Shown one piece after another: positions 16,601-25,500 of a stretch of DNA of 64,000 nucleotides (position 1 is the stretch's first letter; each line of letters opens with the position of its first letter). The translations under genes were made by a program, and so were the position numbers. The stretch lies in contig PJRA01000172.1 of assembly GCA_016987375.1 (NCBI GenBank), forward strand, positions 235,450 through 299,449, given 5' to 3'. This DNA is from Brachionus koreanus (Eukaryota > Rotifera > Eurotatoria > Ploima > Brachionidae). The notes under the pieces are model-generated. The model saw nothing but the letters and a program-made list of their open reading frames with translations. It did not search any database and had not been told where the DNA came from.

Positions 16601-17940
16601 TTTCTAATCTATTTTACTTTGGAAAAAATTCATCACAATTCAAACAAAATTCATTTCAAAAAATTCTAATTAATTTGAAAAAATAAAATAAAATGTAAAT
16701 AAATTTATTCTAAAATTTTTTTCATCTCATTTATTTTGTATTTCCTCTATTCAAATATTTATTTTGACTTTGATTTATTCCATAATTATTTTTTTAAAAA
16801 TAAATTTAATGAAAAAAATTTTATTTATTTTTTTAAGCATAACAAAATGAAAAACTTAATTTTTTTTGGTTCGGTTTGAAAAATAAATTTATTTATTTTA
16901 TAAACTGGATGATTTAAGCATTCATAGAATGATTGATGACTTTTAAAATCTTCTCTAACTCAAAATCAACAGAATTCTTATTAATGACAAATATCCGTAT
17001 GTTTCCGTTTAAGACTCAAAAACTATTATCTTCAATTTAATTAAATTGTTTATAAAATTTCCATTTCAATTATTGTAAGACATTAAAATAAGCTTTCTCA
17101 ATATACTACAAAAGATAAGACATTATGTTATATAATATTTTACATAATCGAAATAAAAACGTAAACAATAAGTTAAAAAAAATATGTCTATAACATTTAA
17201 GATTTTTAAAAAAATAAAAACATAGACTTTTTTGATTGAATATACATAATTTATTTTTATTTAATATTGCTCGAACTATATATACTTATTGATTAAAAAT
17301 CACAGCCTTTTCATGTTAAACATTCGATCTTGACTATTCATTGAATGATGGTTAACTTAGTAAAATGATATTTCTTATTAAAAATAAATTTTTTGAAACG
17401 AAAATAGAAATATGCATTTTAGTGTGTAATAGAGTAAAATTATCTTTGGATATCTGAAGTAGGGACATATATTTAAAAGAAAATAATTTTTAATACTTTT
17501 TATTTTAGTATTAAAGAAAAATATACAATAAATATTAAAAAAATAAACTCGATTTAAAATTATAAACACTATTTTTTTAAAAGCATTTATGCTTTTATTT
17601 TACTGGCACATTATATTTTAGCTTAATCGATTTTTTACTTAGTTTAGGAAATTTTCACATCAAAAATTAATGATTAATTAATTTTAGTAATAAACTATTC
17701 AAACAATATAAAAACTTAAAGCGCTTTTATTGCGAATTTTAATCATATACTTTATTGAAATTCTGGTTTAATTAGTAAAAAGAAAATCTAAGCTTATTGA
17801 TTATTTTTTATTCTCTCTAAAAATTTAGACAAAATTTGCCAAAAATAAAAAAATTTTTTGTTGGGAAAATTAAAAAAAAAAGTTTTTCCAAGTATAAAAT
17901 GTTGAATATATTTATTTTCCCTCAAGATTTTGTTAAAAAC
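13635..17940. other. 4.3-kb gene-poor AT-rich region
   Basis: No exon-like segment, tRNA or clear inverted repeat was seen. Open frames here (for example 17378-17569 on the minus strand) are Phe/Ile/Tyr/Lys-rich translations of AT-rich DNA. As the region upstream of the 714-aa gene and downstream of F8A, it could contain regulatory DNA, but nothing specific is visible. Confidence 0.4.
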
Positions 17941-18981
17941 TTATTGAGAGAGCAAATCATCAGTGTAGGATGAATTGAATATTTTGTCTATTATCAAATT
18001 AAGAATATAATTTTGAATATCAGTTAGGTGCGGCCAGAGCTCTTTTTGAAGAGTATGCAATGAATTGGTATCATTAGATTGGCATGCCATAACAAATGAT
18101 TGCAGCAAGATAAATACATTTCTATTCATACAAATGACAGGCAGATAGTTAGTGGTTGAATTAGCAAGAGTCTGAAATGAATTATATGCTTCAATTGTCT
18201 GCTTGTGTTCTGGCTGTAGCTTTGTGGGACTCGAATAGATTAGTAGAAGAAGCTTGGAAATATCTGCTTGTGTCAATAATTTAGTCCATAAACCTTGAGG
18301 TTTAGAGTAAAATGAATTTAGATTAGTTAAATCACTGCCTCTAAACGAGCCTGATCTGTTCGAACTAATCAAATAAATGCTGCAAATAGAGTTTGTTATT
18401 TCAGTGTAAATTCTTAGAGCTGTTAAGTAGTCGCAAGTGAAAACTTTGAGAGCAGCTAATTTAAGTTGAATTAAAACTACTTGAAGTTGCTGGCTCGATT
18501 CAGAATTACTAGACAATGATATTGCACGCTCATAGTATGGTATAGCTTCAAAATACTTTTCATATTTTAAAGCGAGGATATCGGCTAGTTCAACACACAA
18601 TTTAGCAGATAAAGTTCTTTCATTTTGATCACAGTTTAACCTAATTAGCTCATCGTAAATAGACATGACACTAAGCAAATCTTCATTAAATGTTATATTA
18701 TTTGATTCGATGGCTGTGGCTGTTTCTGATTGAAGGTAGTTTTTTGCCGCGTTTTGCAGAGCAGCTGATTCAGACACAAAATTACCTACACTGTGATAAC
18801 ATTTTGCCACTTGTTGCCAACATGCCGCAGATAAGCTGAATGATTCTTCTTGGTCTAATTGTTTGCTCAATGCAGTATACTCATCGATGGCGTCAGTTAC
18901 ATTAGGTTTTCTAAGAAATTTTTTTTTCAATTTTTCTGATATTGATTTAAATGCTAAATTGTAGTCATAATTCACGTCCAT
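17941..18981 (-). CDS. F8A1: HAP40 (40-kDa huntingtin-associated protein, F8A)
   Basis: Intronless, 346 aa (human about 371). The N-terminus SEKLKKKFLRKPNVTDAIDE is nearly identical to the family signature KLKKRFLRKPNV. TPR-like helical pairs follow (YFEAIPYYERAISL, CDYLTALRIYTEI). The end matches HAP40: KLQPEHKQTIEAY, FILLQSFVMACQ and KELWPHLTDIQ. HAP40 binds and stabilises huntingtin and has been linked to Rab5 endosome motility. The ATG is three bases after the TMEM234 stop codon, in the same frame, so the two proteins probably share a transcript. Lack of introns beside an intron-rich partner would fit an ancient retrocopy; human F8A is also intronless. Confidence 0.95.
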   Translation of the reverse strand: MDVNYDYNLAFKSISEKLKKKFLRKPNVTDAIDEYTALSKQLDQEESFSLSAACWQQVAKCYHSVGNFVSESAALQNAAKNYLQSETATAIESNNITFNEDLLSVMSIYDELIRLNCDQNERTLSAKLCVELADILALKYEKYFEAIPYYERAISLSSNSESSQQLQVVLIQLKLAALKVFTCDYLTALRIYTEITNSICSIYLISSNRSGSFRGSDLTNLNSFYSKPQGLWTKLLTQADISKLLLLIYSSPTKLQPEHKQTIEAYNSFQTLANSTTNYLPVICMNRNVFILLQSFVMACQSNDTNSLHTLQKELWPHLTDIQNYILNLIIDKIFNSSYTDDLLSQ

Positions 18982-18984
18982 TAT

Positions 18985-21176
18985 TTAATAGCTAGCTGAA
19001 GCACAAATACTAACACCCAATAAGACAAAAAATAGGCCTAAAAACACTCCTATTTAAATAAAAAAGCTTGTTAATCATTTTTTGTTTAGAAAATAATATT
19101 GCTAATAAATTACTGAAATTCAAAGTTTCTTCGCCGATTATTATACCAGTAATTGTTGTAAATAAAAGTGTAAGTGAATTTGTAATGGGAACAACTAATG
19201 ACAAATCTTAAAAATTAATAATTTAAATTTAATTTAAAATTTAAAAGCGAGTCCAAAATCATTTATTTCTAAATTATTAATTAAAAATTAAATTTTTTAG
19301 CTTTTTTTTTTACAAATATTTTGTTGTTTTTTGAATCACTGGTGAATGATAAAGAAGGGTGTACCTTAACAACAGAAAAAGAAGACGCACAAAGATGGGT
19401 AGAACACTTTAAATAAGTTCTAAATAGAGTGTTTATATCCTGAACCTGCTAGTACAGATCTTTAATATTGATACACAAGAACCAACGAAGAAAGAAATAT
19501 TTAAAGCAGTAAAGACTCTAAAAAACATTTCGACTGAAATGTTGAAAGGGGATCGAGGAATCTCTGTAGATATATTGTAAAACCTGTTCAGAAAAGTATC
19601 GTCACAATAGCAAATTCCAGAAGATTGGTCAAAAGGATTGGTTGTCAAATTTCCACAGAAAAGTTGGACAGGAGTTACCCTGCCAAAAATAGCAAAATAA
19701 GTGTTCGGTAGTAGTGTGATTCTGGACAGAATTAAAGTTCAATGTATGTTAACTTCAAAGACTTTCTCAAAGTCTTTGAAAATGTCAATAGAAAAACTCT
19801 TTGGACCATACTTAGATTTTATGGTATACCCCAGAAAATTGTTAACTTGATAAAAATCTTCTGCGAAGAATTCGAGTATAGTATAATTCTGGAAAAAGGC
19901 CAATCTGAAAGCTGCAAAGTAAATACAGTAGTAAGACAAGAATGCGTACTCTCTCCAACTTTAATCCTGGTCTTAATAGACTATGTCATGAAGAAATTAA
20001 CTGCTAATCCAAGAGGTATTCAGTGTGAGTCTTATCACAAGACTTGTAGACCTGGACTTTGCAGATGATCTTGTGTAATTAGCGATTGAATAATGCCAAA
20101 ACCAACTGGACTTTAAATAAACGGGACCAAAACAAAAGTAATTTGCATAAACACAGAACTTAGCAACCAGATAAACATTTAAGTTGAATGAAAATCATCA
20201 GCACGACTATGGGTTCACACATAGGCATGGAGAATAGACTGTCGAAAGCAGAAAGTTTCTTTGCAAGACTCAAATAAGTATGAAAATATACCAGCTATAG
20301 CAATAAAACAAAGCTAAATATGTATAATGGTATAGTGAAAGCAACACTAACATATGGTAGTGAATGCTTGGGGATGTCTGAAGCTGACAGAAAAAGTATC
20401 AAAAATATACATTCCACACTTCTAGCTTAAGAAGAATAAAAAAATACACTGGCCTGATACAATAGCAAATAATTAGCTATTCAATGTACACCGCAAGGTA
20501 AGAGAAAAGTAGGAAGACCAGCAATGACTTAGAGAGCAAAAATTATGAAAGAGCTCATTGAAATGGGTAAATTATGGGGTGAATCAGGGGTAAAGGCAAA
20601 AGATCGACTTGAGCGGAAATCAAAAATAATGACCCTATGCTTTATACCTAAGAAGCGTATAAGGAAAATAAAATATTCATTGTATATAAAGTATTTTAGA
20701 GAAAAAATCGTTAGCTGCCTTGCTATTTTAGTTATATAATATTAAAAGATAAACTCTCAAATTTATCATTTTATAAAATTATCAAATTTATTTTAAAAAA
20801 AAAGTTTTCAAATCAATTTTTTTGTGATTAGAATAAATTTAATTTTCAAAATTTCAATCTAAATAAATGATCTTGGATACGTTACAGGTCTTGATGAATT
20901 TTACTTGCATACGCTAGCGCAATGTAGAAAAGAATCGAACCAATTTGATTTAAGAGAAAAGGTATTAAATACTTGAAATGGATTTAAATTATTTTTAAAG
21001 TAAAATTTTTAAAAATAACTTACATCAAAATTTGTGAACAAATATTTAAATTCTAAATATGTTTTAGTTATAAAATTGTTGGCTTTTATTTTCTCTAGTC
21101 CAGCAGTTCCTTTTCGTATAAACGGATTCGTAATACCCCACAATAAAGACGAAAAAAATACTAATACCAGTTGCAT
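18985..21176 (-). CDS. TMEM234: TMEM234-like DMT-type membrane protein
   Basis: Minus-strand exons 21024-21176, 20905-20971, 19114-19206 and 18985-19049 (125 aa, phases 0/1/1, all GT-AG). It matches TMEM234 throughout: LLWGITNPFIRKGTAGLEKI, IPFLLNQIGSILFYIALAYA, LSLVVPITNSLTLLF then TTITGIIIGEE, and VFLGLFFVLLGVSICASASY at the end. Four hydrophobic helices are visible, as expected for this half-size relative of drug/metabolite transporters. Vertebrate TMEM234 has been linked to the kidney filtration barrier; molecular function is unknown. The 1.7-kb second intron (20904-19207) holds an antisense dead LINE and is far longer than others here. The stop TAA is followed by ATA and then the HAP40 ATG. 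Confidence 0.93.
19340..20740 (+). mobile_element. Dead non-LTR retrotransposon inside a TMEM234 intron
   Basis: Plus-strand pol fragments in order. Linker upstream of RT: TLTTEKEDAQRWVEHFK. RT palm and fingers: VNFKDFLKVFENVNRKTLW, then FYGIPQKIVNLIKIFCEEF and TVVRQECVLSPT (family VRQGC.LSP). Next GIQCESY. Thumb: LTYGSECLGMSE. C-terminus: GKRKVGRPAMT, then MKELIEMGKLWGESGVKAKD. Stops and frameshifts are scattered, and the YADD/FADD box is damaged (LDFADDL frame-shifted near 20055). It is antisense to TMEM234 and is not disrupting its exons. The style (GIPQKIV, VGRP.KTW) fits RTE- or CR1-related LINEs; clade not settled. A 3' fragment of the same type is at 51630-51840. Confidence 0.85.
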
Positions 21177-21554
21177 TAGATCTAAAGTAAGAATTTAGTC
21201 GTGAATAGATATATTTTAAAATTGACTTTCATAAACCGTAATTAATGTTAAAAATGGTAATAATTTTTTTATAAAGATTTAATTTCGCAGAACCAATTTT
21301 AAAAATTTGGGGCTTGTCAAATTCATGACCAAATGGTCACATATTTTACTTCAAAAATTCAAATAATTAATTTTATGATCAACTGGTCTCAAAATTTTCC
21401 AATAAAAATTATAAAGTAAATTTTGTGAACAAAATTTTTCACTCTGAAATTTTTTTTTCTGGTCATGTGATTAATTACAAATTTTGAATGTAAATTTTAT
21501 GAACAATTATGTAATCTAAACTATTTTAAATTGAATTGTAAAATTATTATTTAA
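21177..21554. other. TMEM234 upstream region
   Basis: AT-rich DNA between the TMEM234 start and the TTAA-flanked element. It contains short partly palindromic repeats such as ATGACCAAATGGTCA near 21325. No gene seen. Confidence 0.3.
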
Positions 21555-22163
21555 AGTGTAGGAAATTCAAAACTTCCGTGCTAGCTAAATTTCTAATTTT
21601 TGACTTCATATTCGTAATCTACGACCTTTAAAACCCTAAATTTGATTTTTTTTTTGGGGGGGTCTAAAAAAAAAAATTTTCAAAATAAACAATTTGCTTT
21701 ATATGCAAAAAATAAAGAAATAAATGAAAAAAGTAAAACCATAGATTTGTTCCAAATTTTGTCTAGTTTTATATTATGTAAAAAAAAAGTGGTTAAAAGT
21801 GACCCCTGGGACGAGATTCGATTTAAATGGAAAAAAGTGCATTTTTTTGATATTTTTAAGCTATAAAAATCGGCACACCTTCTTTTTTTTATTTTAAAAC
21901 AATCGAGTTTTTAGAAAATTTTATGCTCTTTCAGAAATGATATAACTTGTCTATATATATATGTTCTATCATATAGATTTAGGGTCTCAAAGACCAACAA
22001 CTCGATATTCGGTCGACTGTTTTTAGACCCCTGGGTACAAATTTTTTTTTTTAGACCCCCCCAAAAAAAAAATCAAATTTAGGGTTTTAAAGGTCTTAGA
22101 TTACGAATATGAAGTCAAAAATTAGAAATTTAGCTAGCACGGAAGTTTTGAATTTCCTGCACT
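21555..22163. mobile_element. 609-bp foldback element flanked by TTAA (piggyBac-like MITE?)
   Basis: Terminal inverted repeats of about 115-125 bp are nearly identical. The left starts AGTGTAGGAAATTCAAAAC; the right, reverse complemented, starts AGTGCAGGAAATTC. Both continue through CTTCCGTGCTAGCTAAAT and a poly-G/poly-T tract. Each end abuts TTAA (21551-21554 and 22164-22167), the target duplicated by piggyBac-type transposases. The 360-bp interior has no coding sequence. The arms differ by only a few bases (for example T/C near the tip), so insertion or gene conversion is fairly recent. piggyBac ends usually start CC/CAC, so the superfamily is a suggestion. Confidence 0.75.
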
Positions 22164-22177
22164 TTAACTTTTTCAAA

Positions 22178-22585: not shown

Positions 22586-25500
22586 TCAGTCAAAATAATC
22601 GTCAATATCAATGTCCGGATTAATTAAGTCTTCACCATAAGGACTAACATCAATTTGATTGAGGATTAAGTTTTCAAAAGTTTCTTCTAGATCAGTTTCA
22701 CCAATTAACAGTGCTCCTTGAACTTTTCCATCATAAATAATTACTTTAACATATTCAACTCCTTCAGTACATCTTATTAATAGCTCGTAGTTATTTCCAA
22801 GATTCTTCGCGTCATAATTTCCCAATAGTATTACTTTGTAATTGAAAAAATTTGTTATATGAGCAAACATTTCAAAACAAAAATCTAGAGAAATTGATTG
22901 ATTTTTGCTAGCTGAAAGCATAGAACGAGCTGCGTAATCTCCCATTTGCAATGCTTGACTCCAAAGTCTCATTTGAAACCAATGAGGAGCCCAATTCCAA
23001 GAAGCAGTACATGCATCGCCGGCAGCATAGACATCTTGAATATTTGTTTCTAATCTGTCATTTACTTTAAGGCCTCCATCAAGTCCGAGTTCAAACTTGA
23101 ATTAGCATTTAGAATTTCAATTTATAAATAATTAAGTATTAATTACACTATTGTTTTTTGTGAATATTTCAACGGACGGAACCACTCCAGTAGCACTGAT
23201 TATTAAATCACATCCGTATATTTTATCATTTGTTAGTTCCACGTAAATAGGCCAATCTCCTTGTTCCTCTATTGTGCTTGTTTTGACATTTTTTCTATAA
23301 AATATACGCTTAACTTCAGTCTTGTATTCAACTACTACTTGACGAGATCTCTGATTTTTTATTAAGTAAAATTTATTTCATTCTTGGAAATATTTATTAG
23401 TTACCTCACTTGCTCCTTTAATAATTAGATCTAAAGACCAATCAGGACCCAAAGCACTACTTGATATATTTTTTACATTTTGATAAGTCTTTGAATCATA
23501 TTCTAATAAAATTTTATTATATTTTTCATAATATTATGCTAAGTTATTTAATTCGGCGATTTTTATAAGGTTTTAACATTAATTTCAATTTTAGCATTTT
23601 TGGTTTTGTGAAATTTGGTACAAAATAAACAAATAGAACAAAAAAAATGCTAAAAAATCTAAAAACTTTTTTCCTGAAGGGTTGAAATTAGTTCTGAAAG
23701 TGCAACAAACTTAGTTGCACCAAAAGTCAAAGTCTGCTAATGATGTGCAAAATCTCTGCAAAATGCNNNNNNNNNNNNNNNNNNNNNNNNNNNNNNNNNN
23801 NNNNNNNNNNNNNNNNNNNNNNNNNNNNNNNNNNNNNNNNNNNNNNNNNNNNNNNNNNNNNNNNNNNNNNNNNNNNNNNNNNNNNNNNNNNNNNNNNNNN
23901 NNNNNNNNNNNNNNNNNNNNNNNNNNNNNNNNNNNNNNNNNNNNNNNNNNNNNNNNNNNNNNNNNNNNNNNNNNNNNNNNNNNNNNNNNNNNNNNNNNNN
24001 NNNNNNNNNNNNNNNNNNNNNNNNNNNNNNNNNNNNNNNNNNNNNNNNNNNNNNNNNNNNNNNNNNNNNNNNNNNNNNNNNNNNNNNNNNNNNNNNNNNN
24101 NNNNNNNNNNNNNNNNNNNNNNNNNNNNNNNNNNNNNNNNNNNNNNNNNNNNNNNNNNNNNNNNNNNNNNNNNNNNNNNNNNNNNNNNNNNNNNNNNNNN
24201 NNNNNNNNNNNNNNNNNNNNNNNNNNNNNNNNNNNNNNNNNNNNNNNNNNNNNNNNNNNNNNNNNNNNNNNNNNNNNNNNNNNNNNNNNNNNNNNNNNNN
24301 NNNNNNNNNNNNNNNNNNNNNNNNNNNNNNNNNNNNNNNNNNNNNNNNNNNNNNNNNNNNNNNNNNNNNNNNNNNNNNNNNNNNNNNNNNNNNNNNNNNN
24401 NNNNNNNNNNNNNNNNNNNNNNNNNNNNNNNNNNNNNNNNNNNNNNNNNNNNNNNNNNNNNNNNNNNNNNNNNNNNNNNNNNNNNNNNNNNNNNNNNNNN
24501 NNNNNNNNNNNNNNNNNNNNNNNNNNNNNNNNNNNNNNNNNNNNNNNNNNNNNNNNNNNNNNNNNNNNNNNNNNNNNNNNNNNNNNNNNNNNNNNNNNNN
24601 NNNNNNNNNNNNNNNNNNNNNNNNNNNNNNNNNNNNNNNNNNNNNNNNNNNNNNNNNNNNNNNNNNNNNNNNNNNNNNNNNNNNNNNNNNNNNNNNNNNN
24701 NNNNNNNNNNTTCATTTTTAAAAAAGAAATATAATTTTTTTTCAAATGGTTCTGCAAACAGTACATTGTTGTTAAAATTTTATTAGACGAATTCTAGGCA
24801 CTGCAAAAACTGTGCAATTTATTGCAAATTTTTTCTGATGTTTTTTTTTATTGTCCATTTAACAGAAAAATGAAGAGTTTTTGGAGAGTTTAGAATTCGT
24901 TTTTAAAAATTTGTACAACAATGTACTGTTTGCAGAACCACAATTTTAATTTTTTTGAACAATTAGAAAAAAATTAAATCGTTTTTTTCTTTTTGTACTA
25001 CAATTTCATATTGCCAAAAAATGCTAAATTTCATTGAATAAAAAATTAATAGAGATAGTAGCCCAAAGGGTCGAAAAAAAACCTCCGGATTTGAGAGCTA
25101 ATAGTAATAAGTACAGTGATGTTCTGCTTTTTATTATTTAACACAATTTACATTAATCATGTTGAAAAATCAAATATTTCCCAAAAATTTTTGAGCTTTT
25201 GAGTTCAAAGATTTTGTTCTGACCTTTGATTTTTCTATTTAATTATTTTCATTAGAATAATTTTTTAGTACTATCAAAGTTCAGATATTTTAATAAAATT
25301 AAGAAAAAGCTCTAAAGCTCTTAAATTTTTGAAAATTTTTTTATTTTACAATAATTTTACAATTACTTTATATAAAATAATATAAATTTTCTTTTACTTT
25401 GTGGCAAAAAACAAAAAGCAGAATGTCAATGTTTAAAATTTGACAGTCATATCTATCTAATTATCAAGTTACATATGAATAAATATATAAGCAAGTTAAA

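Follow-up and report, generated by a model that had tools for sequence, protein, structure and literature searches.

Dicistronic loci are said to have been described in Drosophila for stoned and Snapin by Wall, Phillips and Kelly in 2005, a study that we know through citing papers only. In green algae, bicistronic loci with a short first open reading frame (ORF1), short spacers and AUG depletion have been reported, with leaky scanning supported by reporters (PMC11892635), and like observations for stoned and Snapin are attributed to Wall et al. 2005 (PMC3372440, PMC11892635); a count in Drosophila gave 159 dicistronic pairs (PMC4528330). What is said here of papers cited by PMC number holds for the portions of those texts that were available. 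The two genes considered in this study, TMEM234 and HAP40 (F8A), lie on the minus strand of a 64,000-nucleotide stretch of the genome of the rotifer Brachionus koreanus (assembly GCA_016987375.1, contig PJRA01000172.1, positions 235,450 to 299,449; hereafter the window). They appear to form a unit that works like the Drosophila and green-algal bicistrons, with a clade-wide loss of methionine from TMEM234 as its unusual part, and the likeliest route to HAP40, which we put at a probability of roughly 70%, is leaky scanning past the TMEM234 start.

As at stoned and Snapin, the rotifer locus would yield an animal dicistronic mRNA with a first cistron that is poor in internal AUGs and a second one that is reached by leaky scanning, although the genes are unrelated and the rotifer first ORF encodes a membrane protein of 125 amino acids (aa), is followed by a spacer of 3 nucleotides (nt) and has lost methionine across many sequences. 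The green-algal loci are similar in layout, with medians of 357 and 291 nt for ORF1 (378 nt in the rotifer), 1113 and 1185 nt for ORF2 (1041 nt) and 183 and 40 nt for the spacer (3 nt), and with AUG depletion before ORF2 and conservation (PMC11892635). They differ in being algal rather than animal and in forming a genome-wide class rather than a single pair, and the weak context of the rotifer ORF1 is not firm. The spliced-leader (SL) operons of nematodes and chaetognaths (PMC12460157), together with bdelloid SL trans-splicing, provide a further likeness in that tight same-strand pairs are co-transcribed as operons; unlike these, Brachionus has expressed sequence tags (ESTs) without a leader in the portion of the report available, and two mature-looking contigs hold both cistrons. 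The initial annotation knew of no TMEM234-HAP40 unit, and indeed no paper naming both genes was found; the literature on rotifers and dicistronic genes, judged by titles and the beginnings of abstracts, likewise yielded nothing on a rotifer gene pair.

The TMEM234-HAP40 junction

The features of the locus, in the order of transcription, are as follows.

21024..21176, minus strand: TMEM234 exon 1; start codon at 21176-21174 in the context CTAATGC, donor GTAAGT
20905..20971, minus strand: TMEM234 exon 2; acceptor TTTCAAG, donor GTAAAA; relatives have a matching length
19207..20904, minus strand: TMEM234 intron 2, 1.7 kb, holding a decayed reverse-transcriptase-like remnant on the plus strand
19195..20910, minus strand: the sole non-start ATG of the TMEM234 coding sequence, out of frame; a 5-codon ORF (MQICH) spliced over exons 2 and 3, then a stop
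19114..19206, minus strand: TMEM234 exon 3
18985..19049, minus strand: TMEM234 exon 4, without an ATG; stop TAA at 18987-18985
18984..18989, minus strand: ATTAAA hexamer on the TMEM234 stop, a possible weak poly(A) signal
18982..18984, minus strand: intercistronic spacer ATA, read directly from the sequence
17941..18981, minus strand: HAP40 (F8A) coding sequence, 346 aa; start context ATAATGG
17911..17916, minus strand: AATAAA, likely the shared poly(A) signal of the unit

The remnant in intron 2 is an ORF at 19742-20068 on the opposite strand, whose labelling as reverse-transcriptase-like and non-LTR (lacking long terminal repeats) was made by eye from its translation.

Direct reading bore out the coordinates and the frame given in the initial annotation: the TMEM234 TAA (18987-18985), the ATA (18984-18982) and the HAP40 ATG (18981-18979) follow one another in a single frame, with three bases between stop and start. 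Both proteins are full length, as it had also stated. Four TMEM234 exons, separated by three GT..AG introns, join into a 378-nt ORF whose 125-aa product matches the Pfam TMEM234 family (PF10639, E=2.9e-36), and HAP40 is one uninterrupted ORF of 346 aa (18981-17941) with a match to human HAP40 from solved structures (6ez8_B, E=6.4e-33). In the assembly (83.26 Mb, 92 contigs), each gene was found once. An AATAAA lies 24 nt beyond the HAP40 stop (17916-17911). The claim that a poly(A) signal could not fit at the junction does not strictly hold, since the ATTAAA at 18989-18984 overlaps the TMEM234 stop; this hexamer is common in AT-rich DNA, with five others between 21300 and 17800. On the other side, a PYROXD1-like gene lies 1.4 kb from the TMEM234 start, and the 3-nt gap is thus not the local norm.

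One option raised for the junction is stop-codon readthrough, which would give a TMEM234-Ile-HAP40 fusion protein, and the frame is indeed open from TMEM234 through HAP40 but for one TAA. However, the 54 HAP40 relatives listed include no such fusion, and the longest has 405 aa, though candidates of up to ~605 aa were admissible. Moreover, two HAP40 relatives (P0036 and P0052) carry N-terminal extensions that can encode a TMEM234-like tail, and they do so in differing frames. We consider readthrough extremely improbable; the single reading frame across TMEM234 and HAP40 is probably incidental, since these extensions back-translate to other frames. The same extensions offer hints that TMEM234 lies directly upstream in these relatives too, without the frame being kept. 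The motif for the tail was written after the P0036 extension had been seen, and in controls it was matched by 66/20000 and 150/5000 random peptides and by 829/20000 shuffles of the P0036 extension.

Conservation of the pair and evidence for one message

To each protein, the database of relatives assigns the size of the longest contig that carries it, and a HAP40 and a TMEM234 entry were regarded as linked when they had equal contig size and the same source. This comparison covered 54 HAP40 and 90 TMEM234 entries, the latter being 29 of the 34 from a first search and 61 of the 84 that were new in a second. Those set aside (5 and 23, respectively: named non-rotifer species, entries without a size, contigs already entered, and P0132 at 558904 nt) were rechecked by eye, and none equals any HAP40 entry in contig size. 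The labels rotifer-type and monogonont, as used below for relatives, follow from similarity. HAP40 identity is 65% for B. calyciflorus, the best match with a species name, and up to 86% for the closest entries, and the B. plicatilis TMEM234 (P0059) is 77% identical over 83% of the query. This last NCBI protein has a wrong C-terminus and lacks exon 4.

Twelve HAP40/TMEM234 pairs on 11 contigs agreed exactly in size and source, the contigs being 47866 (B. calyciflorus), 28256, 21414, 17806, 7800, 3649, 3444, 3200, 2109, 1537 and 1304 nt long. When sizes were shifted by 1 to 100 in either direction (200 shifts), the mean was 0.385 pairs and the maximum 3, so one false pair is possible and eleven are not. 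Evolutionary distances also agree between the two proteins (Mantel r 0.72, with 8/20000 permutations as high) for 10 pairs including the window; P0023/P0084 (no exon 1), P0048/P0130 (partial HAP40) and P0086 were omitted from this test. Within this set of 10, both proteins of the 1537-nt contig have the same nearest relative, P0014/P0124 (17806 nt). Synteny of the pair in related genomes had been suggested as a check by the initial annotation, and by equal-size matching the pair recurs on these 11 contigs of relatives. Because of this recurrence the linkage goes beyond chance, and a conserved side-by-side arrangement, as opposed to a local accident, is strongly supported by the comparison. A scan of viral contigs and genome contigs with a HAP40 alignment profile found no relative in either.

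The absence of introns from HAP40, next to the intron-rich TMEM234, is as originally described, and it had prompted the idea that HAP40 is a retrocopy captured behind a host gene. A recent retrocopy is not supported: one HAP40 was found in the assembly, and the pair is common to diverged relatives. By eye, the HAP40 frames of four relatives (P0048, P0049, P0052 and P0053) break after CDYxG, and a further entry (P0054) starts there, which suggests that HAP40 probably has an intron at this point in that linked clade. Given this common, intron-like break point, the intronlessness of HAP40 is not telling. HAP40 may nonetheless be a very old retrocopy whose parent has been lost.

Two of the linked contigs bear on the nature of the message. 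In relatives, exon-1 fragments continue past the donor site directly into a tail that starts with V, which makes intron 1 a general feature of these relatives. The 1537-nt contig, by comparison, encodes a 126-aa TMEM234 with all exons joined (P0057) and a 345-aa HAP40 (P0009), which together occupy 1419 of the 1537 nt and leave 118 nt for untranslated regions and spacer. On the 1304-nt contig, a TMEM234 with exons 2-4 joined (P0084; its start is cut off and it carries a few additional residues where exons 2 and 3 meet) and a 342-aa HAP40 (P0023) take up 1248 of the 1304 nt, with 56 left. These contigs look like cDNA of a single two-cistron mRNA. With the conserved linkage, they support the option of a true dicistronic mRNA that had been raised for this locus, and we judge it very probable that TMEM234 and HAP40 share one message.

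The same contigs argue against an SL operon, in which HAP40 would receive a trans-spliced leader, with either the final TMEM234 acceptor (19050/19049) or an AG within exon 4 as the splice site. AG acceptors lie close upstream of HAP40, exon 4 is without an ATG, and SL trans-splicing exists in bdelloid rotifers; for B. plicatilis, a low-abundance subset of such transcripts was left possible by the authors of an EST study (PMC1925144). That study, in the portion available, found no leader in 68 B. plicatilis transcripts with upstream regions (PMC1925144). In the B. koreanus genome the leader pattern of bdelloids does not exceed its control: it occurs at 11 places, each with 3 mismatches, versus 23 for the reversed control; other leader sequences lie beyond this search. 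Since, in addition, two contigs keep both cistrons joined, this option seems to us very improbable.

Methionine loss and the route to HAP40

How would ribosomes reach HAP40 on such a message? Leaky scanning requires a first cistron that is poor in AUGs; no such requirement comes with readthrough, reinitiation, a spliced leader or a promoter of HAP40's own. The TMEM234 coding sequence in the window has 1 non-start ATG in 378 nt, compared with 6.9 expected from base composition and 5.2 from dinucleotides, and such a low count occurs in none of 69 coding segments of equal length, which were cut from long ORFs within the window and 200 kb of the B. koreanus genome (mean 7.6). The depletion extends to relatives. 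Across 39 complete or partial TMEM234 sequences of rotifer type (2456 residues), methionine never occurs beyond the start, as against 126 occurrences in 7120 residues (1.8%) of other TMEM234 (56 entries of 110-150 aa); the HAP40 relatives have 257 in 17708 residues (53 of the 54 entries, without P0054). The 39 were chosen by eye, mostly for their close similarity and initial MQ, which makes the shared MQ partly a product of the choice; near-copies (P0108 and P0136, of P0107 and P0139), a diverging entry (P0161) and exon-1 fragments of other types (such as P0151, P0153 and P0163) were left out.

To weigh these counts, sequences were simulated along the tree in 1500 runs, starting from the methionine-free window sequence and using the HAP40 methionine frequency. 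For the 39-sequence set the simulated mean was 19.8 methionines and zero was reached in 0/1500 runs, the lowest value in repeat simulations being 1. Because the set had been picked by eye, the count was repeated on the 12 entries from linked contigs plus the window, which have no methionine in 896 residues against a simulated mean of 7.2, with zero in 4/1500 runs. Exon 1 alone has 0 in 1802 rotifer-type residues (14.0 simulated, P=0.0027) and exons 2-4 have 0 (5.6 simulated, P=0.023). Position 110 of the window's TMEM234 corresponds to methionine in 27 of 48 other TMEM234 and to leucine in all 7 rotifer-type entries that extend this far. Applied to HAP40, with 12 partial entries left out of the alignment work, the method gave 119, 144 and 187 methionines at frequencies of 1.45, 1.77 and 2.3%, compared with 139 observed; for other TMEM234 (48 entries of 120-140 aa, including P0060, of uncertain lineage) it gave 69 compared with 107 observed. 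The simulation thus predicts HAP40 methionine well and underestimates that of other TMEM234, and so is not biased towards depletion. P0060 itself is a more distant TMEM234 of 122 aa on a 1491-nt contig, with no internal methionine, no MQ start and no matching HAP40 entry.

The start contexts are CTA-ATG-C for TMEM234 and ATA-ATG-G for HAP40. An MQ start, and hence a C at +4, is found in 11 of 11 linked entries with an N-terminus versus 1 of 48 other TMEM234. Ranked against other B. koreanus ORFs, the TMEM234 start is weaker than the HAP40 start in two samples, and its absolute rank depends on the sample.

Leaky scanning fits these observations best, and it was absent from the options of the initial annotation. 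Both cistrons would lie on a single mRNA, capped, spliced and polyadenylated, of an estimated ~1.5 kb. Ribosomes scanning from the cap would in part initiate at the TMEM234 AUG, and the others would bypass it, reach the HAP40 AUG 381 nt further on and make HAP40. Such passage would be possible in a TMEM234 coding sequence all but devoid of further AUGs, and selection for an open scanning path would have cleared TMEM234 of methionine throughout these rotifers.

An alternative that also accommodates a shared message is termination-reinitiation, in which ribosomes would terminate at the TMEM234 TAA and initiate again at the ATG that follows after three bases. The stop-start gap of only 3 nt favors it, and coupling of this kind is known from certain viral mRNAs and from a small number of cellular ones (PMC5972666). 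Reinitiation needs no AUG-free first cistron, however, and the loss of internal methionine codons, for which the initial annotation's option of reinitiation fails to account, would stay unexplained. Reinitiation following an ORF as long as 125 codons is, moreover, usually poor. On balance we regard it as unlikely.

Several observations weigh against leaky scanning on a common message. Linkage in the relatives was read from equal contig sizes, in which strand and order are not seen, and of the 22 HAP40 entries on contigs of at least 3 kb, 8 are linked and 14 have no linked TMEM234 entry. Short TMEM234 pieces (~51 aa) are easily overlooked and could account for these 14, but the genes may also have separated in some lineages. 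A genomic loss of introns in the two species with short contigs would give a picture identical to that of cDNA. With regard to the depletion, besides the choice of the 39 sequences by eye, exon 1 is poor in methionine outside these rotifers as well (20/2383); W, H and Y are likewise under-represented relative to the LG model (P 0.01-0.04); and out-of-frame ATGs are not rarer than under synonymous recoding (1 vs 1.47, P 0.5), which places the depletion in methionine codons. The TMEM234 start context scores lower than each of 24 long-ORF starts (at least 250 aa), yet ranks at the 42nd percentile among 43 starts of ORFs with at least 150 aa; that of HAP40 is at the 12th or 56th percentile, respectively. 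Finally, two HAP40 contigs of 1187 nt (P0008) and 1200 nt (P0033) fit a monocistronic message only, or are truncated, and the ATTAAA at the TMEM234 stop could terminate a TMEM234-only message. These last two points would suit a HAP40 promoter inside TMEM234, in intron 2 or 3 or in the exons, that gives rise to a separate capped mRNA, with the genes merely overlapping in the DNA. Contigs with joined TMEM234 exons and HAP40 speak against such a promoter, as does the lack of methionine in exon 1, which a start further downstream does not require, and we think it improbable, to the same degree as reinitiation.

Implications and surroundings of the locus

A broader proposal is that an obligate two-cistron gene was fixed in a monogonont ancestor and has persisted ever since, that all HAP40 would come from ribosomes that skip TMEM234, and that the supply of HAP40 would have purged methionine from the TMEM234 of the clade. 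From the sequence comparisons, we see this proposal as evenly balanced. If leaky scanning is true of this unit, it would be a clear animal example, apparently spanning the clade, of one mRNA that yields two full-length, mutually unrelated proteins with no spliced leader, in a group in which no such case had been found. The methionine loss of TMEM234 would be a scar of leaky scanning in a protein sequence, usable to find other such mRNAs; a methionine-free first cistron is a test that needs proteins only, and dicistronic genes could be searched for with it in poorly studied animals. HAP40 would also be coupled to TMEM234 translation. In mammals, HAP40 is a stable partner of huntingtin. Annotation with one coding sequence per transcript may lose the second cistron: the B. 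plicatilis TMEM234 (P0059) is without its last exon, and no HAP40 entry listed is labelled B. plicatilis.

In the window as a whole, no Rfam family was found at the gathering threshold and no tRNA by ARAGORN. The end of the next gene upstream of TMEM234, at 22586-22972, has a Rubredoxin_C domain and was taken by eye to be PYROXD1-like, and a block at about 23760-24720 translates as X. Between the PYROXD1-like gene and TMEM234, at 21551-22167, is an inverted repeat with 129-nt arms that are 98% complementary and 359 nt apart, which looks like a recent terminal-inverted-repeat insertion resembling a miniature inverted-repeat transposable element.

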